Positions 6,001 through 30,500 of a stretch of 64,000 nt of DNA are shown one piece after another. The DNA comes from Planctomycetota bacterium. GTDB lineage: Bacteria > Planctomycetota > Planctomycetia > Pirellulales > Pirellulaceae. Position 1 is the stretch's first letter; the number at the start of each line of letters is the position of its first letter. A model generated the notes under the pieces. That model had not been told where the DNA came from. It searched no databases and saw only the letters and a program-made list of their open reading frames with translations. The stretch lies in the NCBI GenBank assembly GCA_027622275.1, contig JAQBZB010000007.1:1-64000 (forward strand), read 5' to 3'. A program made the translations under genes and the position numbers.

Positions 6001-9000
6001 CGTCTCAATCCGCACGAACAGACCATTGACCGAATTGCCAATCAAGGTGTTCCTGTAAATGTCAGGACCGATTCGATTGAGCGTATCCTCGAAACTGTTC
6101 GGATTCGCGGAGATAGCGGCATCGGCACTGTTCGTAATGCGGTTGAACGAGATGGTCGGCCGGGCAGTTTCAAGGTGAATCGGCGTGAACACCTTTTCGA
6201 GCGATCCCACAACCACTTTGCCACCGCCATTGTTCAACTCGGCGTGATTCACCCAGTTCAGGAAGATGCCTTCCTGCTCGAAGTCAGAATCGTCACGCAA
6301 GACGATCCCGCCCCAATCTCCAGGCCCAGGCGGTGCCCCAACAGCATCGCTATCACCGCCGATGGCGTCGTTATGGAACGACCGGAAGTAGACGGACGAA
6401 TCCGGAACGCCAAGGATTTGCAGAGCGGCACCACGCTGATCGATCGTCCCCGTCGAACTGCCGACGTCAATGATTGCGTCTTGCAGCTTGAACAGGACTC
6501 CCTCATCGATCATGACCGTCGTTCCGCGCGGTACGTCAAAGGTGCCACCGTCTTCCAGCGGCGTACCCGCATCGTCAAGACCGACGAGATACGGCCGGGC
6601 ATTGCCCGGGAAGTCCGTGGGGTTGCCGTTCCCGACAATGCGAACCAAGTTTGGTGCGGTGAGTAGTGCGCTGGTGCCACCGAGATTCAAAGTCGCAAAG
6701 GCCGGATTAGCTGCCACAACATTCACTCGCACACGCGTGCCGCTGACGACCTTGCTGGCTAGTGCGTCAAGATTGCCGAGCGCCTGTTGGCCGTTGATTG
6801 CGGCGACGATCAGATCCGCGATGTCATCCGACGACGACGCCGAAGCAATGCCAACACCCGTCCCTGAAACTCCCGTCGTATTTGTGAACGTAAAGGTCAC
6901 CACCGGGTGCGTGCCGTCATCAATCGAAAACGATTCTCCAAACTGAATCAAGTTCTGCGAGTCGGTGGGAAGGTTGATCCGGAAACCGGCATCGAGCAAC
7001 GCTTGGCCGATCTCGTCGTAAGGATCGGCGGCAGTGCCGGTTCCTTCCAGTACACCGGGCGTCGAGCTGCGAGACTTGTCGACGAAGATCGTCTCGCCGG
7101 CCTGGAACCAGAAGTCAAATCTTCCACCCGGCAGTCCATCGGTGTCGCCGTCGAATGGTATTCCCTCCAGATGTCCCAATGTTGGATTGATGCTTTCGCT
7201 GATCAACAGTTCGTTATCAAAATCGATACCGCCACTCGACAAGAGTGTCGGCGATCCGGTCATTCGGACGCGAGGCCCCGCGGCTTCCGCGACCGTATTG
7301 AGGGTGGACGCGTTGATCGCATCCGCCAGTGCCCGGGCGAGATCGCTGGGCGTCGCGGTGCCTTCGAATAGCACGGGTTCGTTACCAAACGCAACAACAC
7401 CAGTGTTCGTAAACTCGAAAATCTTGGCCACGCCGTCGACTTCGATCTCCAGGAACTCGCCAGGAACGATTGTCTCACCACCCGCCAGGAACTCAAATGC
7501 GGGAGCCTTATCCACAAGGCTGCTCTTGGGTGTCGGCGAAAATCGCAACACCAAATCGTACTCACCATCCGACGTACCACTTCCTCCCGTATCGGAAACG
7601 GCTGGATCGTAATTCTCATTGCCGGTGCTGCTGACGCCGATGTAATACGTACCCGGTTCAAGATCCAACCCGATAAACGAATCGTTGCCGAAGTAGTCGT
7701 CATTCTGCGAGATGAGTTCCCGCACCTGGTTTCCGTTAGCATCCGTGACAACCACGCCGTTGACATCGGTCTGGACCTTGTACAAACGGAGCGTCGTATT
7801 CAACAGGCTCGACCGCTCGCGACGTTCCGCGATCGTCTCGGCCGAGAAGGTTCCCGGCTCTTGAACGTCGAACTTGAACAGGTCAATGTCCGTGCTATCC
7901 GGGCGATACAACAGCTGAGCGTGGACGATGTCCTGATCGCCGGGGAAGACCGGTTCGACTGGCTCGCCAGAGAGGCCAACGCCACCAGGAACGGTGTTCG
8001 CCGCCAGATCTCCCATCATGGCGGTCAGATCGTACGTACGTCCCAGCCCGAGCGCGGTGCCAATCATTTGAAACGCGGTTCGGAACCATTTGCCACCGTA
8101 TTCGCTGCTGCCGTGATCCGTTTCATTCGCATCCACCACGGCCGCCAGCAACCCCGTATTCGTGCGACCCGCTTTCCCGAACGGCTCGCCTGGTCCAACC
8201 GGCGTCGACTCGTTAACCACGCGCAAGTCACCAGTCACAACGGTCAAACCGGACGACGGCGTCTCGCGGAATAGAATTCCCGTGTAACGACTCAGCAGGT
8301 CGAATATCTCACGAGTCCGCTGTCGTTGATTCGCGGTAATCGTGTTCGAGAGCGGGTTTCCTTGCAGATCCTTTCCGTACACATTTTGGAAGTTGTAATC
8401 CAGCACGGCGATGCTCGGATTCGTATCCGAAATGCGTCCGAGATTCAGCCCGTCATGGAGATCCGCGGCGTCGTCTGTGTTCGCCACATCGAATCCGTCT
8501 TCAAAGCCGCCATAATCCGTCGTATTGAAGTCGGGCGGGAACGGTCCGATGTGAACCTCCGGAGGAATGCTACGGTGTCCAACTTCGTCCAAACCGCCGG
8601 GATATTCCGGTAGCGTTGTGAACGCACCTTGCGCTTCGATTCGCGATGAAAGCGACTTGGTGGCGGTCCCCAACACTCCGAGACTTATTGCGGTATCAAA
8701 ACTCGAGTTGTCGTCCGACAACCAGGTGACGGTATCGCCGGCGCTGTGCATTAGACGCGTCGTGTTGTGGAAGCCCCGTTCGACCGTGAACGTGTTGCCG
8801 GTTGCCAGCGACACTCGCAGATGCTCGCCGTTGACCTCAATTGTGAACGGAGCGGACCCGGGAAACTGATCGCGGTCGTCTACCGTGAGCGATGTCGCAC
8901 TGATGCTCGCCACCGGCAGCGTCAGTGTCGACGCCCCGGACAGCACGCCGCGGTTCACCGAGACGCGGAGCAGATAGGAACCTTCGGTGGCTCCGTTGGT

Positions 9001-12000
9001 CGTCGTCCCACCCGCTACCGGATCATAGGCGGTATTCAGCGCGCTCGAGACACCGATGTAGTACGTTGTCTTCGCGGTTGCGAGCGGCGCGGTTACCGAA
9101 GCGTCGATAGCCGCAGCGCTCGACACTCCCATGGCTTCTTCGACTAGAACGCCACTACCGCTGTCTCGAAAGACACGCACATACGTCCCATGCGTGCCGC
9201 GTGGGTCGACATCAACGGACAGAGTGGCACCCGCATTCAACTCTAGCCGGTACATGTCGACGTCGTCGGCTCCGTCGTCGGTGTCGCCGGTATAAGCCAC
9301 ATGGCTCAAGTCTTCGGCGACCAAGCTGAAGTCAAACAAGGTCCCCAAGTTAACCGCCTCATCGCGAGTGTCGTTCGATTCGTCCGAAGTGCCGATCGTC
9401 AAGCGATGCGTTCCGTCGGGAATCGCCGTCGCGAAGAGCAGCGTCGCAACATTATTCTCCTCGTCGTAGCTCACCGATTCCGGCAACAAGATCACGTCAT
9501 CCGACGGGTCAAGGGTGGCCTGCGTGTCCGTGACTCGATAGAACGCGCGATTCTCGGCGGAGGCGGGATCGAGTTCGTCTTGGTTGAAATAAACATCGAT
9601 CCGATTCTCCGCCTGCTGTAAGCGTCGCACGGTGACGCCAGGACTTGTGCCCCCCGTCAGCAAGGTGGCATCACCGGCGAGGATTCCAATCGGCCGATCC
9701 GCGACAGCGCCTACAAAAGTGACGTTCCACATCAGCGGAGCGGGACTGACCACGGTGACGTTGCCGGGACCAATGCTGGCCAATCCTTCGAGCACTGTTC
9801 GCACCGCGGCTTCGCGAATCGCGGCGCTGGCCGACGTTGCGGCGGCGACCGTGATCGGGCTCGTCATTTGGCCGCTATAAATCAGCTTGAATGACCCGCC
9901 CGTCGGTAGACCCGTCAATTCGATATTTTGCGTGTAGCGATTGATCGGTTGAGGGACGACAGAAACGACGTGCGGTGCCAGGTTCAACTCGAAAGTTCGC
10001 GCCAGATCCGAAGCCATGCCAAACGCTTCACCCAGGTTGTTAGTAAGCGGCAATCGGAAGCCGCCGAGCAGCGTCAACTGCGTCACGGGCGCGGCTGGAG
10101 TCGCGATATTTGCATTCGCGTTCCCGGTGATCTCCGTCGTGAGCAATGCCGATATCGCCGCGTCGTTGTCAATGGCATCCTGCAACTGTTGCGCGCTCGT
10201 TTCACTGCCGAGTGTCGTATTTAGTTGGATCTGAATCGTTGTGCCGGAAAGCGATAGGTTGGGCGGCGCAGCGATCCCTAACGACGATTTCGAAATCTGA
10301 ATCGAGCGGTTGTTGCCGGTAACTCCAGGCTCCCGCGAGACAAATCGAACTTGGACGTCGTTCGTGATGTCGACATCCAGCGTCGTGCGGAACGAGGTCG
10401 TCGCCGAAGCAGCATTCGAAACACCAAAGATCTCAAGACGATAATCATCGTCGGGAAGTGTTTCCGCAAAACGGACGATCACCTCGTTGGGATTGTCGCC
10501 GCGGTTGATGTATCCCGGTGTAATCGTCACATCGTTCGCGCCGCCCAATGTCGCCTGGATCGTCAGCGCGCTGCCGAGAGCGCTAATATCCGTCTCCGGG
10601 ACACCGATTGGCAAGGTCGCAATCACCAAGGCGCGCGCCGCTGGATTGCCATTGATCGCATTGACATACCGTCTGGCCGTCGTCCGATTGGCAACATGTG
10701 TGTTCACTTGAACCGTGATTACGTTACCACTTACAGTAACGCCGACGCCTCCGCTGGCACCGCGATTCGCCTTCGTCGTCACCACCGAGATGCCATTGCC
10801 CGCGGCTGCCGACGCAACGGCTGTGTATTGCACCTCGATCGCGCCCAACGTCCCCAAGTCCGACACGGCTGTCGCCGCATTGGCACCGTTGAGCACTAAC
10901 GGCGAAACATCTTTCACGCCATCAAGAACAAGCGGCGTGGTTGGCACCACTTGGGAAACATCCGTCGTATCGTCTCCGTTCAGGATCGCCGCTTGCACAA
11001 CGGCCCCGGCAATCGTGTTGACGACATCGCGAAGTTGGCCCGCCGTGGTCCCGCCGGCCCCACTGGCGACGTTTGTGTCGATGTCAATATTGACAACATT
11101 CGAAACCACGGTCACGCCTGGCCCGCTACCACCCCGGTCGCTTCGCGTGATATTGACGATCACCCCATTACCCGCTTCGCCTGGCGTCGCGGAGGTAAAC
11201 TCGATCTCAACGACGGCTCTCGATTCTGTTGTGACAACACCACCCGGCGTCACATTGCTGGCAACGTTAATCTCCGGCAATGGAGTCTTCGAGTACTGGC
11301 CCGTAAACTCGATATCGATCGGTGCTAACAACAGTGGACCGCCGGTCACAAGGATGTCAGCCGGATCAATCGAAACAAGTAATTCCAGCGCGGATCGTAC
11401 TTGAGCTGCCGTGGCATCGAATGGAATCGGGTCAGTTTGTAACGCCATCGATCCGTTGTTAAACGTCAGTTGGAAATCACCTACGGTGGGTCCTCCGATC
11501 GCCGAGAGCCTCTGGACTTCATTGCTAAAGTTGGCTACCTCCGAGGCGTCCCGAACCGCCGGTGTGATGACGGTCGTGGCGCTGCCCGAGACAATCGCCG
11601 CGGTCAGCAAGTCCGCCTCCGCTGAATTACCTTCGATCGTATCGAGCAGCACCTGCGCGGTGGTTTCGCTGTTGCGCGTTGTATTGAGATCGATCGTGAT
11701 CAAGCCGCCGTTGACACTAATCCCCGGTGCCACCTGATCGCCTCGATCACTTCCGGTCAGCGCGATCTGGAGTCCGTTACCGGTATCGCCAAGGCGTGAC
11801 GCGGTAAACTCCAGAACGACTGCGCCATTCGTTCCAAAATCCGATCGAATCGAAGCTGGTGTAAACGTTGCGTCGAGGCCGGCTCGCGTGATTTGAATTC
11901 CACCGGCCAGCGTGGCAGCATTGAGATCTTGTCCAGGGCTGAACTGAAGAATCAATTCACGTGGTGCTTCCGGCAACACATCGCCTTCGTTGAGAAAGCC

Positions 12001-12174
12001 TCCGGTATTAGGGCGAATCGCGACAAGATTCGGACCGACGGCAAGCAACTGGCGTTGCTCAAGTTGCTCCAACTGCATCGTGCGCTGGCGACGCGTCTCA
12101 CGGGCCAGGTTTCGACGGCGGTGTCGAGCCCGTTTCGAATCGCTAAACCACGAATAGTTCTTTGGCATGGCCAT
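1..12174 (-). CDS. Giant secreted planctomycete multidomain protein, 3' end outside window (left paralogue)
   Basis: The minus frame is open from ATG at 12174 to the window edge, 4,058 codons without a stop; the C-terminal half lies outside. ATG 12174 is chosen over the in-frame ATG 12168 because GAAGGG sits six bases upstream. Seen in order: a very basic N-terminus ending LEQRQLLA (residues 38-45); four type C modules and type A modules (about 100-1000); a PPC-like sandwich (about 955-1080); a D module (about 1089-1151); a matrixin-like domain without zinc ligands (about 1190-1415); a second PPC; B modules; a parallel beta-helix interrupted by type A repeats; a further PPC; a propeller-like stretch; and a jelly-roll region ending in the YxIDDIIVGFAERGE-type motif. 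The order matches the middle gene, so this is a paralogue. It is probably exported and cell-surface or matrix bound; the exact role is unknown. A candidate promoter lies upstream. Confidence 0.9.
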   Translation of the reverse strand, partial: MAMPKNYSWFSDSKRARHRRRNLARETRRQRTMQLEQLEQRQLLAVGPNLVAIRPNTGGFLNEGDVLPEAPRELILQFSPGQDLNAATLAGGIQITRAGLDATFTPASIRSDFGTNGAVVLEFTASRLGDTGNGLQIALTGSDRGDQVAPGISVNGGLITIDLNTTRNSETTAQVLLDTIEGNSAEADLLTAAIVSGSATTVITPAVRDASEVANFSNEVQRLSAIGGPTVGDFQLTFNNGSMALQTDPIPFDATAAQVRSALELLVSIDPADILVTGGPLLLAPIDIEFTGQYSKTPLPEINVASNVTPGGVVTTESRAVVEIEFTSATPGEAGNGVIVNITRSDRGGSGPGVTVVSNVVNIDIDTNVASGAGGTTAGQLRDVVNTIAGAVVQAAILNGDDTTDVSQVVPTTPLVLDGVKDVSPLVLNGANAATAVSDLGTLGAIEVQYTAVASAAAGNGISVVTTKANRGASGGVGVTVSGNVITVQVNTHVANRTTARRYVNAINGNPAARALVIATLPIGVPETDISALGSALTIQATLGGANDVTITPGYINRGDNPNEVIVRFAETLPDDDYRLEIFGVSNAASATTSFRTTLDVDITNDVQVRFVSREPGVTGNNRSIQISKSSLGIAAPPNLSLSGTTIQIQLNTTLGSETSAQQLQDAIDNDAAISALLTTEITGNANANIATPAAPVTQLTLLGGFRLPLTNNLGEAFGMASDLARTFELNLAPHVVSVVPQPINRYTQNIELTGLPTGGSFKLIYSGQMTSPITVAAATSASAAIREAAVRTVLEGLASIGPGNVTVVSPAPLMWNVTFVGAVADRPIGILAGDATLLTGGTSPGVTVRRLQQAENRIDVYFNQDELDPASAENRAFYRVTDTQATLDPSDDVILLPESVSYDEENNVATLLFATAIPDGTHRLTIGTSDESNDTRDEAVNLGTLFDFSLVAEDLSHVAYTGDTDDGADDVDMYRLELNAGATLSVDVDPRGTHGTYVRVFRDSGSGVLVEEAMGVSSAAAIDASVTAPLATAKTTYYIGVSSALNTAYDPVAGGTTTNGATEGSYLLRVSVNRGVLSGASTLTLPVASISATSLTVDDRDQFPGSAPFTIEVNGEHLRVSLATGNTFTVERGFHNTTRLMHSAGDTVTWLSDDNSSFDTAISLGVLGTATKSLSSRIEAQGAFTTLPEYPGGLDEVGHRSIPPEVHIGPFPPDFNTTDYGGFEDGFDVANTDDAADLHDGLNLGRISDTNPSIAVLDYNFQNVYGKDLQGNPLSNTITANQRQRTREIFDLLSRYTGILFRETPSSGLTVVTGDLRVVNESTPVGPGEPFGKAGRTNTGLLAAVVDANETDHGSSEYGGKWFRTAFQMIGTALGLGRTYDLTAMMGDLAANTVPGGVGLSGEPVEPVFPGDQDIVHAQLLYRPDSTDIDLFKFDVQEPGTFSAETIAERRERSSLLNTTLRLYKVQTDVNGVVVTDANGNQVRELISQNDDYFGNDSFIGLDLEPGTYYIGVSSTGNENYDPAVSDTGGSGTSDGEYDLVLRFSPTPKSSLVDKAPAFEFLAGGETIVPGEFLEIEVDGVAKIFEFTNTGVVAFGNEPVLFEGTATPSDLARALADAINASTLNTVAEAAGPRVRMTGSPTLLSSGGIDFDNELLISESINPTLGHLEGIPFDGDTDGLPGGRFDFWFQAGETIFVDKSRSSTPGVLEGTGTAADPYDEIGQALLDAGFRINLPTDSQNLIQFGESFSIDDGTHPVVTFTFTNTTGVSGTGVGIASASSSDDIADLIVAAINGQQALGNLDALASKVVSGTRVRVNVVAANPAFATLNLGGTSALLTAPNLVRIVGNGNPTDFPGNARPYLVGLDDAGTPLEDGGTFDVPRGTTVMIDEGVLFKLQDAIIDVGSSTGTIDQRGAALQILGVPDSSVYFRSFHNDAIGGDSDAVGAPPGPGDWGGIVLRDDSDFEQEGIFLNWVNHAELNNGGGKVVVGSLEKVFTPIHLETARPTISFNRITNSADAAISANPNSFEDTLNRIGPDIYRNTLIGNSVNGLFVRIETQSGVPVEKLQVPARFDNDDIVHVITENLQIAGAPGGIAVSDEVQEIRIAGNPLAGDTFTLTFDGQTSRPIDFNANAAINGNEIQRVQIAGGPTSGSFTLGLQNEVQTIYLLGSPIQGTYRLRFEAPNGRIRTSTPIRFNASTNEVLQALEDMSTIDPGDVLVTGGPSPAALRVEFTGQYSGLNVHPMVVVDSTLTDGATALAPEVTDNEIQTLRLLGQPTGGTFQLRFTSPTGIVGTSSPIAFDAMASDIQTALESIAAINPGDVIVKGGPLPGTVTIEFAGSYARTNVQALTFISGAFPTLNASITSSNPYLTRSLSSSLPYNATAAQMRAGLEAMGAIVPGDVLVTGVQLPAALDIQFQGNFAGVDVNPLLVSVNTVANLVGPLTPTITDDQVPVKYSVQSRLQELISISVPERGEITIEHIPRDIIATGGPLPASPVQIEFVGKYAGVDVPLLTLASGTLTSGATITTSVIGESAITARPAARLAIDPGVILKFEGARIEAERGESQFIAEGSSERPIVFTSRGDDSYGASGTFDSSSDGATQGTPGDWGGLIFNAGASVSIDHALITFAGGRIPIEGDFDQFNAVEIHQADFRMTNSILENNASGLASSSRNGRGTNAEAVVFVRGAQPVVVDNIFRNNTVHDNLLTPNHIPVGTAMISINANALTSKIQGDYGRSTGDLNLVMDLSSNSPAFTNNRGPLIRRNLIDGNRNPVDVAGNVLGLSIKGLEVRGEELTIETVWDDTDIVHVLRDQIVVLNHHTFSGLRLQSNPGESLVVKLGGNPNLPLDANGNSLNADGSLTGFTASGTPLDIDDRIGGTVQVLGQPRFPVILTSLLDDSHGASFTINGLPHTDTNNDGNVTTPSAGDWRGIRLEQYSNDRNVVVVNEVEGPFTNGIDQNLSPTKAQFLGELAANEKGGDENRSLGFTVNGFIAVDDPSDIDVYSFKAPIGTEVWLDIDRTNASLDAVVELIAFNQSLFARSIDNNTLVSTPTVIARNMIRDDRLGPDAYSTNPDDPGMRLLLPGTIGTGIGTYYVRVRSNTAAGQINNVDAGLTRGEYQLQIRLRQQDEKGGSNIRFANIQYPQTGIHAIGLPAHSPLVGEAAEVEAPNDDRGSAQNIGNLLRSDRNTISVAGRLDAADDVDWYRVELTYQEIQAIAGVNDATRAFSTIFDLDYADQLSRADAVLSIYDENGTLILVARDSNIVDDQPGVGEGNDFDDLSRGTLGKLDPYVGPVTLFAETPGQSEFYYVAVSSNLRLPSSLDQTFNAASATPLVRLEPINSINRVVEDHIGFFGTDTGYVSGDDLDGTQPDGFRFIAPDNAAIFDTDDNGFTTEIHLDTQVIPWTLEDVQLFVSSGNSAVSINPFNGQSWYTIGGGSNVVDLDMRTDGRLFFYSVDTTANNDSSGRVDEIDVGGGDLTNYPDETSELGVPTAFAFRRTGGGDIYDGYFIQTIGGQSGLAIDAEVPADPNHTHVPIPITGIGGIVNGISFGYNQNGGGNQFTELYGVTDAGEFISLGTGGFNATVLTTFPGIRFTGLTLGPQSVEPYAFTRPNEDGRYSRILFATATNGRMYAIDPRDPNGDGSYLPSLRDFDLDGNGVPDIFDTNQDGQADDFSVRLSAGGVSGLAFSRVDYNLWHPTTRRGGDPGHGVNGAFDIYDESRNGSSGSTSFYFGLDESGGPPLNYPNQTGQLGVLDTFEFDLRGNGAIGNNYNVAGGSHGTLESAAFSLQGYSRTDKPTLYVNYFLDTETTNSNGVMRDSARIFVTRDDGASWEMLATNNSVLSTFTNPANPNVELPTYITTSRDTYPAAPNQRVQELFDIDEPGAADVWRQARVDLADFAGEPNLRFRFDFSAAGVITENNSMPGDVDGAGFRSGLRALNNDQEGFFIDDIIVGFAERGEAVTGPLDQRGGSAFFNLPSNPVFGAPPQSLIGEYQLEIRRGTEFVGNDVIKLDFNDPHDPVWIGETLSPIEQTVAAGGSNFEGRNTKILTTWDTNERF
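290..1110 (-). other. NLWH motif and jelly-roll-like region, left gene
   Basis: YNLWHPTTRRGGDPGHGVNG, FYFGLDESGG, KPTLYVNYFLDTE, LRFRFDFSAAG and GFFIDDIIVGFAERGEA match the middle gene's blocks in order. The window ends soon after, inside the following segment (TTWDTNERF), just before where the variable slot would be. Confidence 0.7.
4580..5895 (-). repeat. Type A repeat block in the beta-helix of the left gene
   Basis: About 435 residues of repeated units with the pattern QxLxLxGxPxGGTFxLxF, PIxFxAxAxxIQxALExxxxIxPGDVLVTGGPLP and VxIEFxGxYAGxxV. Five or six full or partial units are seen. They interrupt the beta-helix between ITENLQIAGAPGG and ARLAIDPGVILKFEG. The middle gene has only about a dozen residues at the same point. 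Confidence 0.8.
7890..8607 (-). other. Degenerate matrixin-like domain of the left gene (no zinc ligands)
   Basis: The flanks align with the middle gene's zincin: YPGGLDEVGHRS, then RTREIFDLLSRYTG against VIRDIYELYGSYIG, then FPGDQDIVH and RPDSTDIDLFKF. The zinc motif itself reads QMIGTALGLGR (residues 1369-1379) in place of HEIGHSLGLGH, so all three His ligands and the Glu are lost. The Met-turn position, eight residues after Arg1379, is still Met1387 (TAMMG). The domain must be non-catalytic and may be a binding or purely structural relic. Confidence 0.85.
8723..8910 (-). repeat. Single D module, left gene
   Basis: The core APFTIEVNGEHLRVSLATGN and ERGFHNTTRLMHSAGD matches the D pattern. 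It sits between a PPC-like domain and the degenerate matrixin-like domain (residues about 1089-1151). Confidence 0.7.
10040..11870 (-). repeat. Type C modules near the N-terminus of the left gene
   Basis: Four modules share a core of GNGIxVxxxxxxRGxxxGVxVxGNxITVxVNTxxxxxTTAxxxxxxIN. They lie at about 11520-11770, 10930-11240, 10600-10870 and 10050-10350, with an A module between the first and second. A single similar module is in the middle gene at about 35880-36170. The function is unknown; the composition suggests a small beta-rich secreted domain. Confidence 0.7.
12040..12174 (-). other. Basic N-terminus with LEPR-XLL-like export motif, left gene
   Basis: Residues 1-45 are rich in Arg and Gln and end LEQLEQRQLLA, followed by VGPNLVAIRP. 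The matching part of the middle gene is LEDRRLLA followed by GPELIAIRP. Planctomycete giant extracellular proteins carry such an LEPR-XLL motif near the start, and it is thought to act in export. There is no ordinary hydrophobic signal peptide. Confidence 0.8.
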
Positions 12175-12503: not shown

Positions 12504-15500
12504 CTAGAACAGATCGTCGAGCACGTTATCGAGAAGGTCGACTGAGTCGCCGTCGAAGGCCGCAAAAGCGTCATCGACGAGAGAACTTCGACGCTGGACC
12601 GAGACGAGATCTGTCAACAGATCGTTCCATTCGCCTCGAACCGAATCGAGATGCCGGGCAGGTGCCGCCAGAGCATCGAATCGATTCGCAGTCGCCGACG
12701 GGCCGCTGATCGGGCTGATCCGGCCGGATTCAACTTTGAACAGCGGTGAACTCAAACGACCCGGACGTGCGGCGGCGTGCGGCGCGATCAAATCGACCAC
12801 GTCTGTCGTCGCCAATACCGTGATCGTATCGGATACCAGCGATTCGTCACCACCGGCGAGCGCGAGACCTTCGCCTTCGCCACCCGCTGTCGAGCGGTTG
12901 ATCTCGTTGATGACCAGAAGTACGTCGATGGGCGCAACGGAGCCGTCATTATTCACGTCGAGGAACGGAGGTCCGCCCGGCTGGGTAGGCAAGATTCGCG
13001 AACCATCGCGATTCAAGTCATTGATGATCTGGAGAGCATCAACCGCCGTCACGAAACCATCGTTATTGACATCAAACCGATTCTGTGAGTTGTGCCAAGT
13101 GGACGAACCGCCACCGCCAGCAAGCACCGTAATCTGAACCGTCGTCAACGCAGAGCGAGTCCCCGACGGATCGACGGCTTGATAGGTGAACGTCGAAATC
13201 CCGCTGAAATCCGGTGTCGGCGTATACGTAAAATGACCATCGGCAAACAGCGTGACGCCGCCATTCGTTGGAAGGCTGCGAGCAAGCGCCTGCAACGACG
13301 ATTGTGGGTTGTCAACATCGCTGTCGTTTGCCAACACGCCGTTCAACGCGGCGACCTGCAACGTTTCCCCTTGGTTCATGCTGTACTGATCAGCGACAGC
13401 CACTGGTGCATCGTTAACACCGGTAACAACGATTGTTGCAGTCGCGACCGCCGAGGAGTTTCCATCGGATACGCGATACACAAACGTGTCGTTGCCATTG
13501 AAATTGAGCGCCGGCGTATATGCGAATGCACCATTGTTACTGAGGTTCAGGATGCCATTTGCCACACTGGTTACCAAATTGACAGTCAGCGGATCATTCT
13601 CGATGTCGCTATCGTTCGCCAAGACTCCGGCAAAGGCAGATACCTGGACCGTCGTCTCTTCCGCGGTCGAGTAGCTCTCTGGATTCACGATCGGCGTGTC
13701 ATTAACGCCATTGACCGTCACCGTCACCGTCGCCACGTTGGATGTCAGACTGCCGTCCGAAGCGATGTAAGTAAAGGTATCGTCAAGCGTTTCGTTAGCG
13801 CGCAACAATCGGAAACCCTGGACCCCCGTAGGATCATAGGTGAATCCGCCGTTTCCGTCCGACGTGATCACAGCACCGCGCAAACTGATCGCATCCATTG
13901 AGGAAACGGTGAGTGTCGTCCCCGGATCGGGATCGCGGTCATTTGCGCCCGCCAGCCCGATCACACCCGGCGGTGCCACGATCAGGGCGGCATCGGCGGA
14001 GGCACTGAAGTTATCGTCCAAGGCCGTCGGTGCATTATTCACGCCCGTCACGGTGACCGTGACCATCGCCGTCGATGTTCCGCCGCGTCCATCGCTGACG
14101 GTATATGCAAACGTATCGGTCATCACTTGCCCCGCCGCCAAACCGTTCAGTGTCGCCGAAGTAGTCGGGTTGTACGTCAGGATGCTGCTCGCGGACAAGC
14201 TAATCGTCGCCCCTTTTGCGCTGGTTGGATCATGACTCGCAATCGTCAAGGCGTCACCATCCGGGTCGGTATCTTGGCCGCCTGCGTCAGGTCCAATCAC
14301 ATTGATCGTTTGAACTTGTCCTTCCAAAGTGGCAGCGTGGTCGTCATTTGCCACGGGGGTGTCATTCACTCCCGCCACGGTGACCGTCACCGTGGCTGGA
14401 TTGCTCACGGCCCCATGCCCGTCGATCGCCGTATAGGTGAAGGTGACAGAACGAGTCTCATTCACACCTAAGTCTTGGAACCCGGCACCCGGATTGAAAG
14501 TAAAGGAATTACCTCCAGCATTGCTCGCGCTCCCTTCGCTAGGCGGGGTCGCAACATTGAAGACGATCGTGTTTGGCGAATCATCCGTGTCGATGTCGTC
14601 ACCAACGAACATTCCGCTGACCGGACCGCCATCCTCGACGGCGCTGATGCTCCGATTTTCGACGAACGGTTTATCATTCACGCCATCCACGGTAATCGAC
14701 ACCGTTGCCACGTTGCTCGCGACACCGTGGCGATCCCGCGCCAAGTAGGTAAAGCTCGTCGTTCCTGGCTGACCATTTAACGCCAGCGATTCGAAGGCGC
14801 TTCCGGGCACAAACGTAAACGAACCACCGCCATTGTTGGTTACCGAGCCGATGGAGGCCGAGGGCACGTTGACAAGCGTGAATTGGAGCGAGGCGGGCGA
14901 ATCGTCGCTGTCAACGTCGTCGCCGCCGAAGGACTCCGTCAGCGAACCTCCTTCATTAACGTTGAACAACCGTGACGTCGCTGTGGGCGCGTCGTTGGCA
15001 CCGAGAATCGAAACCACGATGGTGCCAGCGGCACTGATCGAGTTATGCGAGTCGGTTGCCGTGTAGGTAACTTGCGTCGTACCGGTCTCGCCAAGCGATA
15101 ACGCCTGGAAATTCGCTCCCGGATTATAGATGAACTGGCGCGGATTGGCAGGGTCTTTGATGATCGTGCCTACGAGCGTGGTCGGCAGCGGACTCGGTAA
15201 TTGGTACGTGAGCGTCTGTTGTGAGTCATCGCTGTCAACGTCAGCGCCCGCAAATGACCGTGTCACGGGGACACCATCCTCGTTGGCATTCACGTTGACA
15301 GGACTCACGGTCGGCCGATCGTTCGCACCGACCACCGTGACCGTGACCGTCGCCGTCCCAAAGCCGCCATGAGTGTCCGTGACTCGATACCTGAACGTCA
15401 CGTCACGAGTTGCGCCGAGCTTGAGATCATCAAAGTCCCCATCGGGGTCAAATTCAAAGGACACATCCCCCGCAGTTCCAGAGAGCGGCAATACCCGGCC

Positions 15501-18500: not shown

Positions 18501-21500
18501 GAAAGTATCGATCCCGTTGAAGTTCTTGCCGGGTGTGTAGAAGACGTCGGTACCGGAAAGCACGGCGGTACCGCCACTCGTCGGATTCGTCACACTTACG
18601 ATTGTAAGAGTCTGGTTCGATTCGTTGGCCGGCCCGGCAACGTCGTTCATAAGCAACGTCGCAACCGGGATCGTCTTGACGGGGCCGGCTGCTGGCTGCC
18701 CATTCGTCAAGCCGCCGTCTTCGTCGACGCCATCAATCGCGCCGAGGAATTTGTCGACGCCAGGCACGGGCGGATCGTTGACGGCAGTAATCGTCAACGT
18801 AAATGTTTCCACGACCGTTGACTGATTCCCTCCCACGTCGCTGTCGGTCACGGTCACCGAGAAGGTCGCGGTGCCGTTGGAATCCTGGCTCGTCTCGAAA
18901 CTCAAATCACCCGTTGCCGGATCGAACGCAATCGGCTTCGCAAACGTCAACCCGCCTGTGGTGGCCGAAATATTAACGACAGCCGTCAAGGCTTGCGTTA
19001 GCTCATCCGTCGCCGTCGCCGGTCCTGGCAAGACAGTCGATGCCCAATTGCTGATCACGACCAGCCCGCTATCTTCATTGCGAGTCGGGTCTTGCAGATC
19101 CGGGTCGACATCCACGAACGGAGGATCGTTGACAGGATCCACCGTCAGCGTGAATCGCTGCACGGTGGAGGTATCAACGCCACCCGTTACCGTACAGTCT
19201 TCCTCGCCTGCCTGCGGAACGGCAGGACAACCATCGTCCATCAAGACGACTTCAATCACCGCCGAGCCATTCGTATCTGGTGCGGTTTGGAACGATAATT
19301 CATAGTTGCCCGAGCCGGTGTTGAATTCAATGGACGGACCGGCCGTAAAGCTCAAGTTACCCATCACATTGGTCGGCGTCAGGATGAAGTTCAGCACTTG
19401 GCCAGCTTCATCCGTTGCGGCTGCCGGACCGGGCTGAACCCCGGCGACAACAGCGCCCGGATACACAACACCAGCTGCCTCGTAATCACCCTCGCGAATG
19501 TTGCTGGTCGACACCAGTAAGAGACCAAATTCCGGCGCGTCGTTCACCGGCACAACCGTCAAAGTGATCGTACTTTCCGAACTCTTCGCCCCATCCGAGC
19601 CAGTGTTGCCGAGGTCGTCCACATTGACGAGGACATAGACATTTCCGCTCGGGTTCCCTAGCTCGCTGTTGATCGCACTATTAAAGCCCGCAGACGGTGC
19701 CACATACGCCAGCGTTGCCAAGGTGGCGTTAACATCGGCTTCCGTCCCGAGGATCCCCAGTTGATTAGGTGCCCCCACCGTAACAATAGCCGAGCCGGAC
19801 GCCGTCGCCGTCACCGTACCATTATCAATCTCCAAATCCGGATCTGCCTTGACTGTGACCGTCACGAACAATTCGCCCGTGCCACCTGTTTCGTCTTCAT
19901 CCACATCCGATACTGAAACGCCACTCAACGCTTGCGGCAACACCGCTCCACCGCCGTCCACTGCGCCTTCAAAGAACGTGAACTGGCTGTTTACCAAGGT
20001 CACCAGCGGAACGTCGTTCAAGGAAGTCACATCGAACGTGATCGTGTTGGGAGTCGGATCCAGATCGACACCGCCGTTGTTCATGCCGCCATCGTCACGC
20101 ACTTGGAAGGCGAAGCTCGCGTAACCGGTACCGTACTCGTTCAACGCCGGTTTATAAGTCAGTTGGCCCAAGTTCGCCGCCAAGATCTCGGCACCGATCA
20201 AGACCGGAGTGCCGCTCCGCGCCAACGTGCCCTTCGCAGGAAGCGAAGAGATCACCACCGACCGGAAGCCGTTCGGAGCCGGAGCATCGGCCAAGTCGCT
20301 GAACCCGAAGTTGCCGGCCGTAAACGTATGCGTCGCGTCTTCGTCCATCAAGATCGTCGAATTCGCACCGTCCGGCGCGTCGTTCACCAACGTCACATTG
20401 AAGGTGATCGTGTTCGCAATCGGATCCAGATCGATGCCGCCGTTCAAGATGTCGCCGTCGTCACGAACCTGGAAGTTGAAGCTTGCATAACTGCCGCCGT
20501 ATTCGTTCAACACCGGTTGGTAAGTCAACAGACCCAAGTCCGTAAACAAGATCTCGTCGTTCATCGATACCGCAGAGCCGCTCAACGCCAGCGTGCCCTT
20601 GGCCGGCAGCGAAGAAATCACGACCGACATGAAGTTGTTCGGAGCCGGAGCATCCGCTGCGTCGCTGAACCCAAAGTCGCCCGACGCGAACGTGTACGTG
20701 CCATCTTCCAACATCGGGATCGTCAGATTCGCGCCGTTAGGAGCGTCGTTCACCAACGTCACATCGAACGTGATCGTGTTCGCCACCGGATCCAGATCGA
20801 TGCCGCCGTTCAACATCCCGCCATTGTCCCGCACTTGGAAGTTGAAGCTCGCGTAAGCGGTGCCGTATTGGTTCAACGCCGGTTGGTAAGTCAACAGACT
20901 CAAGTCCGCAACCAAGATGTCGGCGTTCACCAAGACCGGAGTGCCGCTCAATGCCAGCGTGCCTTTGGCCGGCAGCGAAGAAATCACGACCGACAAGAAG
21001 TTGTTCGTAGCCGGAGCATCCGCCAAGTCGCTGAACCCGAAGTTGCCGGGCACGAAAACATGCGTTGCGTCTTCGAACAACGGGATCGTCGCATCCGCAC
21101 CGTCCGGCGCGTCGTTCACCAAAGTCACATCGAACGTGATCGTATTCGCCACCGGGTCCAGATTGATGCCGCCGTTCAACATGCCGCCGTTGTCCCGCAC
21201 TTGGAAGTCGAAGCTGGCGTAACCGGCACCGGATTCGTTCAGCGCCGGTTGGTAAGTCAACTGACCCAAGTTCGCAACCGGGATCTCGGCACCTGCCAAG
21301 ACCGGCGTGCCGCTCAACGCCAGCGTACCTTTGGCCGGAAGCGAAGAAATCTTCACCGACAAGAAGCCGTTGGGAGCCGGAGCATCCGCCACATCGCTGA
21401 ACCCAAAATTGCCGGCAGCGAACGTGTGGACCGAGTCTTCCAACAGCGGAATCGTCGTATCCGTCCCGTCGGGAGCGTCATTCACCAAAGTCACGTCAAA

Positions 21501-24500
21501 CGTGATCGTGTTCGCAACCGGATCCGTATCGATGCCGCCGTTCAGAATGTCGCCATTGTCACGCACCTGGAAGTCGAAGCTCGCATAACCGGTGCCGTAT
21601 TCGTTCAACGCCGGTTGGTAGGTCAACAGGCCCAAGTTCGCAGCCAAGATCTCGTCGTTCACGAAGACCTGATTGTTGTCGAACAACAATGTACCCTTGG
21701 CCGGAAGCGAAGAAATGAACACCGACAAGAAGTTGTTCGGAGCCGGAGCGTCCGCCGTGTCGCTGTACCCAAAGTCGCCGGAAGCAAATGTGTACGTGCC
21801 GTCTTCCAACATCGGGATCGTCGCATCCGCGCCGTCCGGCGCGTCGTTCACCAACGTCACATCGAATGTGAACGTATTAGCAACCGGATCCACGTCGATG
21901 CCGCCGTTCAGAATGTCGCCATCGTCCCGCACCTGGAAATCGAAGCTCGCATAACCGGTGCCGTATTCGTTCAACGCCGGTCGGTAGGTCAACAGACCCA
22001 AGCTCGCAACCGGGATCTCGTCGTTCACCAATACCGCAGTGCCGCTCAACGCCAACGTGCCCTTCGCCGGAAGCGAAGAGATCACCACCGACAAGAAGTT
22101 GTTCGGCACCGGAGCATCCGCCAGATCGCTAAAGCCAAAGTCGGCGGAAGCAAACGTATAGGTGCCATCTTCCAACATCGGAATCGTCAAATCCGCACCA
22201 TCCGGTGCGTCGTTCACCAGAGTCACGTCAAACGTAATCGTGTTCGCCACCGGATCCGTATCAATGCCGCCGTTGAACATGCCGCCATTGTCACGCACCT
22301 GGAAATCGAAACTCGCATAACCGGTGCCGTATTCGTTCAACGCCGGTTGGTAGGTCAACAGACCCAAGCTCGCAACCGGGATCTCCGCAAGAAGTGATAC
22401 TCCGATGCCGCTCAACGCCAACGTACCTTTGGCCGGAAGCGAAGAAATGAACACCGACAAGAAGCTGTTCGAGGCGGGAGCATCCACCAGATCGCTGAAG
22501 CTAAAGTCACCGGCGGCAAACGTGTGTGTGCCGTCTTCCAACATGGGGATCGTCGCATCCATCCCGTCCGGAGCATCATTCACCCCAGTTACGGTGATCG
22601 TCAGGGTATGTACGGGCAGCGATTTGTCGGTGCCAAGCCCATCGTCCATTAACTGAACGGTAACGGTCGCCGTTCCGAAGGCGTCCGGTGCCGCTTCGTA
22701 AGTCAGCGTCCCAGCACTGTCGATGGCCGGGTTCGCGGTCGCGATGAAGGTAAGATTCCCCGAAATCACGACCGGCGAGCCGACGATGAACATCAATGTT
22801 TGTCCCGCTTCATCGGTGGCCGTCGCAATCGGAGGACCCGGAACGATATTCGTCGCCCAGGCAACGACCTGTGGGCCGTCGTCTTCGAAGATCGTCTCGT
22901 CAGGCCCCGGCGTGAACTCGGGCCGGTCATTCACGGGATTGACCGTGACCGTCAGCTGATCCGAACTCATCAGCGGCCCGCCAACTCCGGTATTGCCGAG
23001 GTCGTTGGCCTCGAAATCGATCACAACGTCGCCAGGATTGTTGACCTGGTTGAAGTCGGTATTGGGTACAACGTAGGTCAGCGTGGCCAGCGTGGCGTTG
23101 ATGTCCGCCTCGGTTCCTTGCAACGTGACGAAGCTGGAAGCGTTATCAATCGCCGCGGCTCTGCCGTAAGGCACCAACCGTACCGTCCCATCGTCAGTCG
23201 GCAAACTGATCGTTACCTGCATCTCCGTGAAGCCGGGAAGTTCCATTAACGTGCCGGCGGCGTGTGCTGGCCCAGCCGTTCCGTTCGCGGCCCGAATGAG
23301 CGTCACTTCGCCCGCGGGCGCGGTCATTGGCAAAACGAAGAGAACAATCAAGTCTTCGCCATCAATGCGAACCCGGAACGTCGGGAGGTTGGGCAATGTC
23401 GAGATATCGGGGAACGTGACAAACTCGATCGTATCGCCAAGATCGCTGTTCAGCGTCGAAGTCAAAACGCCGTTGGATAGATTCAAAACCGTGTCACCAA
23501 TGTTGTGAGGGCCCGAAATCGCATTGATCGCTCGCTTGACGGTAAAGTCCGCGGTGACGCCTGTTCCCGGCGCGATCGCGGTAACCGTCATCTGCTCGCC
23601 GTTTATTTCGATATTGAACGGCGCCAGCGATGGGAATTGTGTCGCATCGGCAATCGTCAGCGTCGTGACGGGCTGCAGCGCATTTGGCAAGGCGATACCA
23701 GTCGTCAACAGACCGACGAACGCGCCGGCACTGTGAGCGGTGCCATTCACACGGGGTGCGACGATCAAGTTATTACCGACCCGAGAAATCACTCGCAGGT
23801 CTTCGCTGCCGATGCGGATGTCAAATGGAGTCGCCGGCGGGAAGAACGACACGTCGGTGACTTGCAAGGCCGTCGTTGACGCGTTGACCCCAACCGCCAG
23901 CGTCGTATTCATGAGTTCGTCTTCGTCGACGTCAGAGACCGCGACGGGCGATGTGGTCACGACACTTCCGAGTCCATGAACAGCCGCCATTGTGCCGTTC
24001 ACACCTCGCTGGACGGTCAGCGCATTTCCATCGACTCTCGTAACCCGCAACTGCTCGGTGCCCATCCCGATGTAGAAGGGCACGGTCTCCGGGAAGCTGG
24101 CTGTACTGACCACCGTCACACTCGTACTCGCAACCCCGACGGCGATCTTCACCGTCGTCGTAATTCCCAGCGAAAGCTCGGCGAGTGTGCCAGAATTGTC
24201 GTTGAAACCTTCATTCAGCGAGAAAGTGCTGTTGGTGGATGTCGTCAACGGCGCGTCATTCAGAGCCGTCACGGACACTGTCAACGTGGCCGTCGTCTTG
24301 AGCCCCGCATGGTCGGTCGCTTCAACAACAACGGCGGCGACACCACCAAGATTGTTGTTCTGGTGCTCGTGGAAATCGAAGAGCAGGTCGGTGCCAACGA
24401 GATTAACAGTGATCAGCGTCGGATTGCTGTTGCTGAGAACCTGGTAGCTGAGAATATCCTCGTTGCCGTTGTGAAGATCGTCGTCGTCGAACAACGGGTC

Positions 24501-27500
24501 CAGGACGGCACCGTTAGTGACGTCGACATCTTCGAGATCGAGCCGGAAATCAACGCCGGGGGCCGCGTCCAAGTCGACATCTTCATTGAACGTCAGGTCG
24601 GCAAGCGAGGGCAGATTCGCGATGATGGGAGCCACATTCGGCAGCACGCGGACGAGATAATCTTCGACTTCACCGCCGATGCCCAATCCCGTCGGGGCCA
24701 ATCCGCCCACGGAGCTGACTCGGAAGCGAGCGTAGGTATTGCCGGGGACGAAGGAAACGATCGAGGTCAACGCGCTGGGATCGATGCTTAAGCGATTCAA
24801 CCCGGCGGCCACGGGTATCGAACTATTCGCTAATACTTGCACGAGGGAGTTGCTGAAGTGTCCGGCTTGTGTGGTGCCGTTGACGCCGCGTGTCACCGTC
24901 AGAACGTTTCCGCTGACCGCGTTGACTTGCAGCTGTTCGGTGCCAATCCGAACATCAAACGGGAGCGAGTACGAGGCAAATTGAGACCCGTCGGCAACTA
25001 GAATCGTATCATCCGAGACCCGCACGGCGGCGTTGTTGAGATGGCCTGCTTCCGTCGTGCCATCGACAGCGCGTGTCACCGTCAGAGAGGTTCCGCCGAC
25101 TGTATTTACCTGCATCCGCTCGGCGTCGACGACAATATCAAACGGGACCGGATACAAGGCAAATTGAGACGTGTTGGCAACTGGGATCGTATTGATGATC
25201 GGTGTCCGCACGACCGCGTTAATGAGGTGGGCTGCCGCCATCGTGCTGTTGAACGCACGTGTCACGGTCAGATCGTTTAACGCGATCGCCGTGACTTGCA
25301 TCTGTTCGGCGTTAATGACAACAACAAATGGAAGCGTCAGCGCGGAGAATTGGGTGGCGTCGACCACGGGAACGGTGGTCGTCACTGCATCGATCGCAGC
25401 ACTTAACGACGTCACGTCCGGCGCCGGCAGGCTTGCGCTTAACACCGTGGTCGTCGGGATGCGCACACTTAACCTGGAACTAGCCAGCCCCACCACGGCG
25501 TCGCCGACCAGCTTTTCTTCATCCGCGAACAACCCGTTGCCATTAAAGTCAATCCAGGCATCGACAAAGCCGCCGGGCGAAGCAACGACTTCGATCGGTA
25601 TCAAGTATCCCGGATCTGCTTGGGTCGGCACAAATATCTTTCCAACGGAGATGCCGTCTTCGTCGTCGCCCTGCAAGTCGACGACGGCATTTCCAGACTC
25701 GTCCAGGAAGGCTCGCGCCGAGACCGTCGCGACAAAACTGTTGACGGCCGTTTCGATCGCCGTGGCAACATCGATCGCGGTACTCGCGATCGTGCTGATG
25801 TCGCCGGGGACCGGCACGCCCGCCAGGTTCCCAAGATCGACGCGAATGTGGCTCGGATCCGTGAGTTCGTTGTTTCGGTCGAACTCGAACGTGAGCATGT
25901 CGCCGCCGCGCTGGACCACAAACGTCTGGCCATCCTTGACTCCGCCCGAGACACCCGATGCCGTGATCGCCAGCTTGGCCGCCGTCCCGCTGCCGCCACC
26001 GTTGACAAACGTGACGGTATCAAGCGTTTCGCCCAACTCGACCACCGCCTCCGCAAACAACGTGTTGGCCAAAATGGGATCGATCGTACCAATCGCCAGA
26101 TTCGTTCCGGTCTCGGCGGCAATTGCATCGTGCAACTTCGCCGCAATCTGATTTGGCGTATCGCCAACGACCAGGTCGACGGGCGTCGCAGTTGCGGTGA
26201 AGTTAAAGTCGTAGTCAAACTCGAAGACGATACTCCCACTCTGACCGTCGGCAACCGTAAACTGCTCGCGATCGCTGACCGGACCTCGGCCGCTCACTCC
26301 GGCAGCGGCCACCACCAGGCTCGTGTCCGCGCCTTGGATCTGGATTTCGCTGCTGGCCGTAATCTGCGGCAGAATCGACGGGAGCAAGTCACCGGTGGCG
26401 ATGGCTGCGTTGATGGCGGCCAGGACGCGACCGTTCATGACCGCCCGGCTCACGTTGTCCGAAGCATTGATCACGCGATTTCCAAACGTGACGCCGCCCC
26501 CTGGAACCGTGTTGAATTCAAACGTCACGGGGAAGTTGACGCTATCATCGATCGTAAAACGATCCCCGTCGGTGATCCCAGCGCTGCCAATGGCCGGCAC
26601 CGCGATGTACTGAGTTCGCGGCACTTGGACAGCCAGCCCGGCACCCACCGTCTGAATGCGTACCGGCAACCGTGGTATCAACCCCAGCCCGACCGTACCG
26701 CCGGCCACCGAAACAGAATGTTCCGGGCGGCTCGCGATTTGAACCAAACCGCTGCCGAGGTAAGCGGCACCTACTGGCTCGCCACGGCGGAGGTATTCGG
26801 GATCGAGCGCGGAAAGGTTCGTCGACAGAATCTCCGGATTGATGGCAGCCACCATCGCCCCGCCAATCTGATCGATATTCGAGGTCAGACTCAGCGGAAT
26901 CGCGATGTTGCCTGGCGTGACGGGCGGCGAGCCAGCCACGTCAAACTCGAAGGTGACGGCAAGATTCAAGCCGTCGTCGATCGTGAACGTCGAGCCGTCG
27001 ACCAGGAAGTCCGTGCCGTTGGCCGCCGGGCCGCGCTGTGTCAAGCTGCTCAAGGAAGCATTCAACGTGGCGCTGGTTCGCGTGCCCTCGATCAATACCA
27101 CTTCAGTCGTCGAATTGCTAACAGCGGCCTCGGGCAAGACACGCTGAATCGCTGCGACGATCGCACTGCCGACGACACCAGGTGTATCGGAAGCCGTGAA
27201 GAGAATCGTGTTCTGCGGCAGATCGGAGTTGTGGACAAGCGCGAACGGGCTCAGATGGTCAGCCGCATTCGTTCCATTGACACCGCGCGTCACAGTAAAG
27301 ACACCGCCGGCGGCGATCGACGTCACCGTCAGTTCTTCGTTATCGATGCGAATGTTAAAGGCGGGTGTCGCCGTGGCCGGGAACGCGGTTGGATCCGCAA
27401 CCGTGATTGTCGGAGCACCCGCAAACGCCGCAGTTGCCAAACGCGAGGCGCGATCGAACCGGAACGTAACGGCCGGACCGCTGCCAGGATTGAAGATGAA

Positions 27501-30500
27501 ACTCTGGCCGTCGACGACGTCCGCGAAGCCCAATCCGTTGTCTCCCACTTCCAGCTCGAACCTCGGCGTCAGTGACAAACGATACTCGACCGCTGATCCC
27601 GAAGGCTGATGCGCCTCGGCCAAGCCGCTCGCTGTCGGAGTCGTGACGCTCAGGTTCGGCGCGCCGCCCAGATACAATTCGCCGTTGGCCAGCACGCTCG
27701 GCGTGAACCCCGCCAGTTCCCCGGCATCGAGGTCCGCTTGAATCTCAGCCCGCAACCGCTCGGCAAGATCGTCGGCCGTCGTGCCGGTGAAGGTCGTCAG
27801 GTCGATCACCGTGATGGGCAGGCTAGGATCAATGCCGCCGTCGCTGGCTAAGGCAAAGAAATTCGTCCCCATCGCGAAGTTTCTGTCATAGGCAAAGACG
27901 CCGACGCCGTTGCGCTTGAAGACGTGAACGCCCGACGAAGTTCCCAAATAAATCTGGCCGTCCAGCACCGCGGCGCCATCCAGAGTGGTCGCACCGGTAA
28001 TCAAGCCGGAGCCCGTGGCATCGAAGGAACTCGTGATCTGGCCGTTCGCGGGATCGATGAGGTAAACCTTGCGATTCAGCGAAGTGGCGACCAACCGATT
28101 GCCGCCGACCGGATCAACCAAGGCTCCCAAGCCGCCGTCGAGTTGGTCGCCGGGCGCGATGATGATCGTTGGATTGAGTGCGTCGATATCGCGAAGTCCG
28201 ACTAAAGTCCGGTTCGTTTTGTCGAGCCTGAAAATGTCGCTTCCCGCCTGATCAATGACGTAAATGTCACCCGCCAACGCGGTCAGTCCGGTGTAAGACT
28301 GGACGCCCGCGGTCAATGGGAAGAAGTCGACAACCATGTCCATATCGGGATCGATCTGGTACAGGATCGCCGGAAGGGTCGGCGAATCCTGAACGAACCA
28401 CAGGCTGACGCCGTCATACGCCAAGCCGACGTCACCGGACGCCGTAATCACTTGCGGAGCGGTGATCGTTAACGGCAAAACGGCACCGGTTGTCTCGTTG
28501 ATTTCGACGATCGTAGGCGGGGCACCGTCGAGAACCGCGAACAATCGCCCCGCCTTCGAAAGGAGATAGGTTTGCGAGTTCGATCCATCCTGCAACGTAA
28601 TCGAGCTGCCGCTCAGGACGTTGGCCGGAGCGGGAAATGTTAAAGTGAACGGTGCCAGCGACGTCGTCCTGAGTCCGGGTGTTCCCGTCAGGTCGATCGA
28701 TTGATCGCGGTCGTCGCCGCTCGCGACGGCATTCGGCTGTCCGTCATCTTCACCATCCACGCGATCACCGAAGTGAACGGCTTCGTCCCCCGGCGTATTG
28801 GGGTTGTCCAGAATCAAGACGTGGCGGGCACCATTGCTCGTTTCGATCGTCCCGTAACTGGCATCCGGCGCATCGCCATAATCGAACTCGAATTCGCCGA
28901 GGATGATCGTGAACGTCGTCGTCCCATCCGGCTGGTTGTCGCGTAAGAAGTTACCGGCATTATCTTGAATCAGGGTGTTGTCCAACGTGATGACATAGAC
29001 GCTGTTCGGCTCCCAGAGCGTCGACAGGGGAGTCAGCAACAGCACTCCCGTACTGGCGTTGTACCCCAGCGTGTAATCCGTGTCTTCCACCAAGTCTTCG
29101 CGATTTCGGGTGATGCGAAGTGCACGCTGCGAGAAGGTGGCGTCCGGATCGTTCGGATCGCTGATCTCGGTCAAAATGTCGACGGTCCGAGCATTGATGC
29201 CAGTTCCCTGGAACGGCGCATCCGGGCCGGCGCCATCGCCCAACAAGATCGAGAACTCTTCGAGGAAGATATCGGTCCGGTAGACAACGGTCACATTGGG
29301 ATCGAGATCCAGACCTTCGGCATCATTATCGACGGGAATCAACAGCTCGGCGAAAGGCCGCTCGTCATCCGCCTTGTCGACGGCACCGCGGTCCTTGAAC
29401 ACCGACGATCCGGCACCCAGAGGATCTTCCACCGAGTCGACTCGGAGTTGCCCGTAGACGTCACGGTCGGGGGCGAAAATCGGCGACTGGGGCAGGCCGA
29501 TTTGAGTCTTGAAGTTCGCGTAGTTCGCGCGGTCCTGGAGAACGTTCAGCGAGCTGTCGACGATGCGCGCACCGTCGGCCGGATAGAAGTTGCCTCGGAA
29601 AGGATTAACGAAGAGCGGGTCGGAGGGCTGCAACACGAAGGAGGCCGCATCCAGGGTTCCCAGCATCCCATCGACCGTCAGATCATTGGTGTTGTCCTTG
29701 AAGGCATTCGATCCCAACACCGTGGTCGGGGATTGGGTGATTGTGACGCCGTCCACGAACCCGGCGACCACGTTGTTCATGATCGTCGGAGACGCATTGG
29801 TATCGACTACGATCCCCGCCGCAGCCTGCGTTGTGCCTGCGGAACCGCCGAAGACGGTGTTATTGACGATCCGTCCGAACGGCAGCGAAGCATTCGGGGC
29901 CGCGTTGGTTTCGCCTTGGAAGTGAATACCGCCCCCCGTCTCGCTCGCCACGACGATGTTGTTTTGGATCACCGCGCCCGGAGCGAAGTCGTCGTTGTTG
30001 AGCTGCGCAAAGTTGATCGGTCCGCCAGGGTAGGTCCGGTTTCCGTTGACGTCGCGTTGTCCAGGTTTGACGTCGATTCCCCAGGCGGCCGCGTTGCTGA
30101 TCGTATTGTTCTCGATCAACAGCAAGCCCTGGTCGCGGTAACGATTCGAATCGCCGAGACGCTTGTAGGTCTCGATCGTCGAAGCGCCAGTGTCGGGATT
30201 GACGACCAGCGTGCCCGCGTTAAGCGCGTAGCCGGACGCAAACGCCGTGATCTGCAAGGTGCGCGAGGCGTCGTTGGTGAACTCGTCGACGGCGTCGATG
30301 TTAAAGTTCGCCACGGTCATCCCGGCCGGGATGAGGACGGTGATCTGCGCACCGCGGGCTCCGGAAACCGGATCGTGCAGCACGGCTTCGCTCGGATCGC
30401 TGCTGACCAACCACACGGTCAAATCGTCAAGCCGAGGGGCGTTCAGCGTGACCGTCCCAGTAGCTGCGATCAGCCCGGCGTTTTCATTGATCGGCGAACT

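Follow-up and report, generated by a model that had tools for sequence, protein, structure and literature searches.

The D module described here, about 60-75 residues long, is very probably a self-folding beta-barrel that resembles the inserts of tailed-phage proteins, was placed in loops of host domains, was rarely copied and has been inherited vertically. The stretch of DNA analysed (the window, 64,000 nucleotides) contains the module at several sites. Split host profiles, hosts found both empty and occupied, and a fold that is the one published for phage insertion domains support a tolerated protein-level insert, which a preliminary reading made from the letters alone (the sequence-only reading) had offered as one option. 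Its wider description of D as an insertable cassette was upheld for the protein, where hosts are split and empty and occupied pairs exist, but no sign of movement as a DNA element was found.

D modules in three giant genes

Three giant genes (g1, g2 and g3; Table 1) occupy the minus strand of the window. Ten D modules were identified by profile search (i-E 4.8e-20 to 9.5e-30), eight of them in g2 with a single module in each of the other two genes, and no further module was found at E 0.01 when the remainder of the genome was searched. The positions given in the sequence-only reading agreed with the profile matches to within a few codons, and the observation was confirmed; the length of the modules, given there as 61-62 residues, ranges from 61 to 75 aa. 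Conserved positions comprise a PF pair, Glu and Val in the middle strands and the pattern V.R..N.T....H, and no Pfam or NCBIfam family matches D. The modules occupy six sites, and the host domain is interrupted at five of these.

Table 1. Genes, D modules and host segments in the window, with the basis of each assignment.
Feature	Position	Strand	Basis or remark
g1	1-12174	-	open at contig edge
D1, single D in g1, between complete PPC domain and next segment	8719-8919	-	HMM i-E 4.8e-29; AF2 pLDDT 90.7
g2	12504-43157	-	10,217 aa
Cadherin-like unit, last host segment	22932-23234	-	joined-host alignment
D9, cadherin-like unit, second loop	23235-23444	-	HMM i-E 4.8e-20
D8, cadherin-like unit, second loop	23475-23690	-	HMM i-E 2.5e-26
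D7, cadherin-like unit, second loop	23697-23897	-	HMM i-E 4.8e-26
Cadherin-like unit, middle segment of host (PVAVSDVDEDEL), flanked by the two insertion points	23913-23948	-	matches VSVSDVDEDE of empty unit
D6, cadherin-like unit, first loop	23949-24149	-	HMM i-E 1.4e-28
Cadherin-like unit, first host segment	24165-24260	-	joined-host alignment
GEVED, C-terminal host part	24642-24827	-	Pfam PF20009 profile 41-77; no length change relative to empty GEVED of L060
D5, third D of GEVED triplet	24831-25013	-	HMM i-E 9.5e-30; 71% nt identity to D4
D4, second D of GEVED triplet	25014-25196	-	HMM i-E 3.9e-25
D3, first D of GEVED triplet	25200-25403	-	HMM i-E 5.3e-28
Extra linker preceding triplet, repeated LSA-type D-start segments	25404-25505	-	read from alignments with G002, G001 and G018
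GEVED, N-terminal host part (to EEKLV)	25506-25673	-	upstream flank matches Pfam PF20009 profile 2-45
g2 B unit, part following D2	27063-27212	-	D-free B-unit profile positions 35-57 of 89
D2, single D within g2 B unit	27228-27437	-	HMM i-E 1.9e-26
g2 B unit, part preceding D2	27453-27527	-	D-free B-unit profile positions 1-22 of 89
B unit, empty in window genome	40071-40346	-	B profile match 1.1e-20; D at same loop in G002 and G018 (alignment)
g3	43205-64000	-	open
Uninterrupted GEVED in g3 (empty counterpart)	50357-50689	-	Pfam PF20009 2-77 in one stretch, E 2e-15
g3 B unit, part following D10	54446-54607	-	B profile 34-82, 29.2 bits
D10, single D within g3 B unit	54620-54844	-	HMM i-E 6.5e-27
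g3 B unit, part preceding D10	54854-54919	-	B profile 1-20, weak (4.3 bits)

Fold, phage relatives and other hosts

The D1 structure was modelled with AF2 by using an alignment of 23 modules, and a six-stranded beta-barrel was predicted. In a composite model of GEVED with D, the D part reached a confidence of 89-95, and most host blocks only 28-53. When the D1 model was compared with known structures by VIA, six phage chains ranked above all others over 70-80 residues: 8jov_1 (phage GP4, portal-tail chain; Z 11.1), 8vjh (phage Chi tail tip, residues 488-582; Z 10.9), 9in6 (VP1 capsid, 63-150 of 398; Z 10.9), 8rk3 (JBD30 baseplate, 479-562; Z 10.8), 9n71 (Mystique tail tube, 104-183 of 264; Z 9.8) and 4ru4 (LKA1 gp49 tailspike, 286-373; Z 8.6). 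Five of the matches, those to VP1, the tail tube, Chi, JBD30 and LKA1, cover a stretch inside a longer chain. Foldseek gave a best E of only 1.4e-3 against the PDB, and a sequence-profile search of the PDB gave nothing significant (best 8vjh, E 0.095; 8rk3, E 0.66; 9in6, E 0.94). Among viral predicted structures, 55 matches were obtained at E 0.001 or better. Nine PHROGs tail and virion families match D by sequence (E 2.4e-9 to 8.5e-5), and D relatives are held by 176 confirmed stretches of viral contigs.

Residues 284-370 of LKA1 gp49 form a six-stranded beta-barrel that interrupts a beta-helix and has been linked to the P22 capsid and V-ATPase (PMC5701251). This insertion domain, listed together with KP34gp57 residues 103-203, resembles D as a barrel that interrupts its host, and beta-helix hosts are common to both, since D relatives were found in the beta-helix proteins L066 and L071. 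The LKA1 barrel differs in that only the catalytic beta-helix is interrupted, with the barrel shaping a groove for sugar cleavage, whereas in the giant proteins D breaks into several kinds of small beta domain and forms tandem arrays in one loop. The coat I-domain of P22 and CUS-3 and the VP1 capsid barrel are likewise six-stranded barrels inserted in capsid proteins, and sequences of the D family are themselves present within major capsid proteins of SU10 type; the P22/CUS-3 and VP1 barrels differ from D in that each capsid protein has a single one, which probably takes part in contacts between subunits. P22 is not among the fold matches listed for D, and the connection is taken from PMC5701251. 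The JBD30 baseplate protein contains a small six-stranded barrel that extends from another beta domain (PMC11445458); this domain VI and the Chi tail-tip barrel have the fold of D by VIA but belong to virion proteins, in each of which a single stretch of the chain was matched. The N-terminal barrel of the F1/V-ATPase catalytic subunits has the same general arrangement and ranked next, with a Z of 7.7 at most, which is under the tool's meaningful level of 8; with 6-8% identity in the top rows, kinship to D is not claimed.

The sequence-only reading had proposed a search for the module in unrelated hosts, and such hosts were found. In a sample of the phylum, 83 of 294 genomes gave a D match at E 1e-4, as did 12 of 60 relatives. 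Besides the beta-helix proteins, D relatives are carried by an RHS/YD-repeat protein of Terracoccus (L079), by a head-tail adaptor (L083, phrog_442), by PilO-like proteins that also have Ig domains (L166, L170 and L176; PilO read by eye) and by proteins whose N-terminus has a methylation motif like that of type IV pilins (L183, L185 and L191, by Pfam). In L183, L185, L191 and a further protein with the prepilin-type motif, L186, the barrel lies near the C-terminus between two apparent strands; these hosts look like a GspJ-like minor pseudopilin, Pfam having been run on L183, L185 and L191. One beta-helix protein with D modules also gave an E1_FCCH Pfam match (2e-8; L066, aa 250-301 of the ORF at 1207). 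The longest array seen comprises eleven D in a row, flanked by two segments of a different host (aa 716-1503; G001, L054:2146-4509); L054 and L069 share one contig.

Major capsid proteins of SU10 type with a D barrel were found in planctomycete genomes on putative prophages (L192 and L193, Pfam E 5e-77 and 1e-80). Many ORFs of 366-400 aa from the search of the phylum resemble these two in length and are candidates for the same host type; the Pfam check covers L192 and L193. The capsid hosts, together with the many D relatives on viral contigs, could indicate that D was captured from prophage virion proteins within the phylum and then spread among surface proteins. On the module tree the labels virus and cell change at least 19 times, compared with 35-42 times for shuffled labels. 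The tree is built on about 60 columns, is unrooted and has a support of at least 80 at 87 of 211 branches; it was used for label counts and sister pairs only and gives no direction, transfer in the opposite sense is equally possible, and in the genome of the window D is confined to g1, g2 and g3 at E 0.01. Capture from prophages, a claim about origin that is compatible with the barrel-insert explanation, is considered possible but rather unlikely. Similarly tentative, and probably too far-reaching, is a description of D as a promiscuous insert that is exchanged between phage virion and bacterial surface proteins, still enters new loops at about the time scale of species divergence in the genus of the window, and grows to nested arrays of up to eleven barrels that serve giant surface proteins as an adjustable side branch.

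Single phage structures in which barrels of this fold serve as insertion domains were already known. The present analysis adds a related sequence family, lacking a Pfam model, that is hosted by pseudopilin-like proteins and capsids as well as by GEVED, Calx-beta, cadherin-like, B, beta-helix and YD-repeat domains. For protein engineering, D would provide an insert taken from nature, for which many acceptor loops are already in natural use.

Host domains on both sides of D

The GEVED domain was followed with Pfam profile PF20009, which is split by D into positions 2-45 and 41-77 in the window, 2-28 and 43-77 in the congener G002, and 2-17 and 43-77 in L058 (NP86, G018). The overlap at 41-45 in the window arises because the extra linker before the triplet resembles the host strand. 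The D-free GEVED of L060 matches positions 2-77 unsplit, and what follows the triplet is likely the continuation of the host, with the same length as in this empty domain (alignment by eye). Three D are present per GEVED in the genome of the window, in G002 and in G001 (L055), one in G018 and none in L060.

B units were compared by using a profile built from D-free B units. In relatives this profile is split at 1-22 / 34-77 (G002), 1-37 / 41-82 (another G002 gene) and 1-12 / 16-68 (G001); several of the B-unit halves score low (4-13 bits), the weakest being the g3 part before D. Comparison of the five split positions shows that three different loops of the B unit take D. The cadherin-like unit contains four D at two loops, one before and three after PVAVSDVDEDEL, an arrangement absent from the sequence-only reading; in G002 it contains five. 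Once the D blocks were removed, 158 columns of the unit could be aligned (44%, E 1.5e-35) to an empty counterpart further along g2. In L064, a D relative splits Calx-beta into 10-51 and 54-112.

The g1 copy had been described as standing alone, and this was correct: the PPC domain upstream is complete (profile 1-70/70), and the copy is therefore a linker. The statement that the host continues on both sides each time was retained for the GEVED domain, both B units and the cadherin-like unit by split host profiles or alignments; g1 is the only site where a host is complete on one side, and the opposite was found at the other five.

On the strength of g1, and of the upstream linker in the window's GEVED, which also aligns to the profile up to position 45, D might be regarded everywhere as a spacer between complete domains, the nesting being a product of arbitrary domain boundaries. 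The splitting of GEVED, B, cadherin-like and Calx-beta hosts into complementary parts, the alignment of D-free copies of the same hosts across the junction and the use of three loops in the B unit make this reading quite improbable.

By analogy with the phage insertion domains of the same fold, we infer that the two ends of D lie close together, so that an exposed loop of a beta-rich host could take up the barrel and the host fold would stay intact. The empty and occupied domains are natural before-and-after pairs for how one domain survives the insertion of another, and the interruption of their domains may be one of the reasons that giant proteins of planctomycetes are hard to annotate. The barrels might be bulky side decorations at the cell surface, adding area for contact or ligand binding, or alternatively might stabilise neighbouring domains, both roles being drawn from phage barrels.

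Inheritance and spread of D

All occupied sites of the window's genome are shared with G002. Nine of the ten modules are matched best in G002 by the positionally equivalent module, and the tenth ties within the triplet; on the module tree, seven of ten have the positional G002 counterpart as sister with a support of at least 90. Between the two genomes, amino-acid identity reaches 67% for D, compared with 72% for the surrounding host. The empty B unit (Table 1) is most simply explained, from the alignment, by loss of D in the genome of the window.

The corresponding block in G002 (G002:C183:60002-177736) is syntenic and contains four giant genes with open frames of 8,263 or more, 11,105, 10,674 and 8,985 aa; no direct orthologue of the fourth was found in the window's genome. 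This fourth gene carries a D in the third loop of a B unit, with 71% aa and 70% nt identity to the first GEVED D of G002. The codon excess of the pair (z 2.5) is one of 875 comparisons and is to be read with care; the two modules may stem from a recent copying event between genes.

Spread by gene conversion or recombination had been suggested as another option in the sequence-only reading; gene conversion between sites is not supported. Ongoing gene conversion between sites, as the process that keeps D copies alike, could draw on the excess of synonymous identity within the GEVED triplet, whose pairs alone show it clearly (13/10.2, 18/11.5 and 21/13.3, observed/expected), and on the G002 pair, which lies on different genes. 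However, modules at different sites are alike in protein to a mean of only 38.5 +/- 8%, codons for the same residue are identical between window modules at the level of chance (391 observed, 398 expected), and the window modules are closer to their G002 counterparts (59-81%) than to their own paralogues. The same codon test applied to seven cadherin-like repeats of g2 as a positive control gave 1395 against 789 expected; the test therefore has power, and gene conversion between sites is very improbable. Local tandem duplication within the GEVED triplet is supported by the sequences, and one cross-gene copy is likely in G002.

It is equally hard to credit that D behaves as a small DNA element with in-frame insertion into coding genes, like the palindromic elements of Rickettsia: copies are dispersed inside reading frames, filled and empty sites occur among relatives and there is one likely cross-gene copy, but direct and inverted repeats at the boundaries do not differ from chance (5-7 nt; null mean 6, 95% point 8), no DNA is shared beyond what the protein requires by the codon count, GC3 resembles that of the host, and all ten copies of the genome are confined to three adjacent genes.

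The spread of the inserted barrel looks, from these sequence comparisons, like rare copying into loops combined with vertical inheritance and local tandem duplication. Copies would enter loops only rarely, as the comparison of genomes suggests; an inserted D would then be passed on vertically, could multiply by tandem duplication inside one loop and would sometimes be lost.

The cadherin-like repeats used as control (window 20019-22580) are seven in tandem, exactly 122 codons each, with 74-84% DNA identity and a strong synonymous excess; unlike the D modules, they are recently duplicated or homogenised, as judged from their sequences. Dockerin type I repeats were identified at the C-terminus of g2 (window 12507-13157, E 8e-21).
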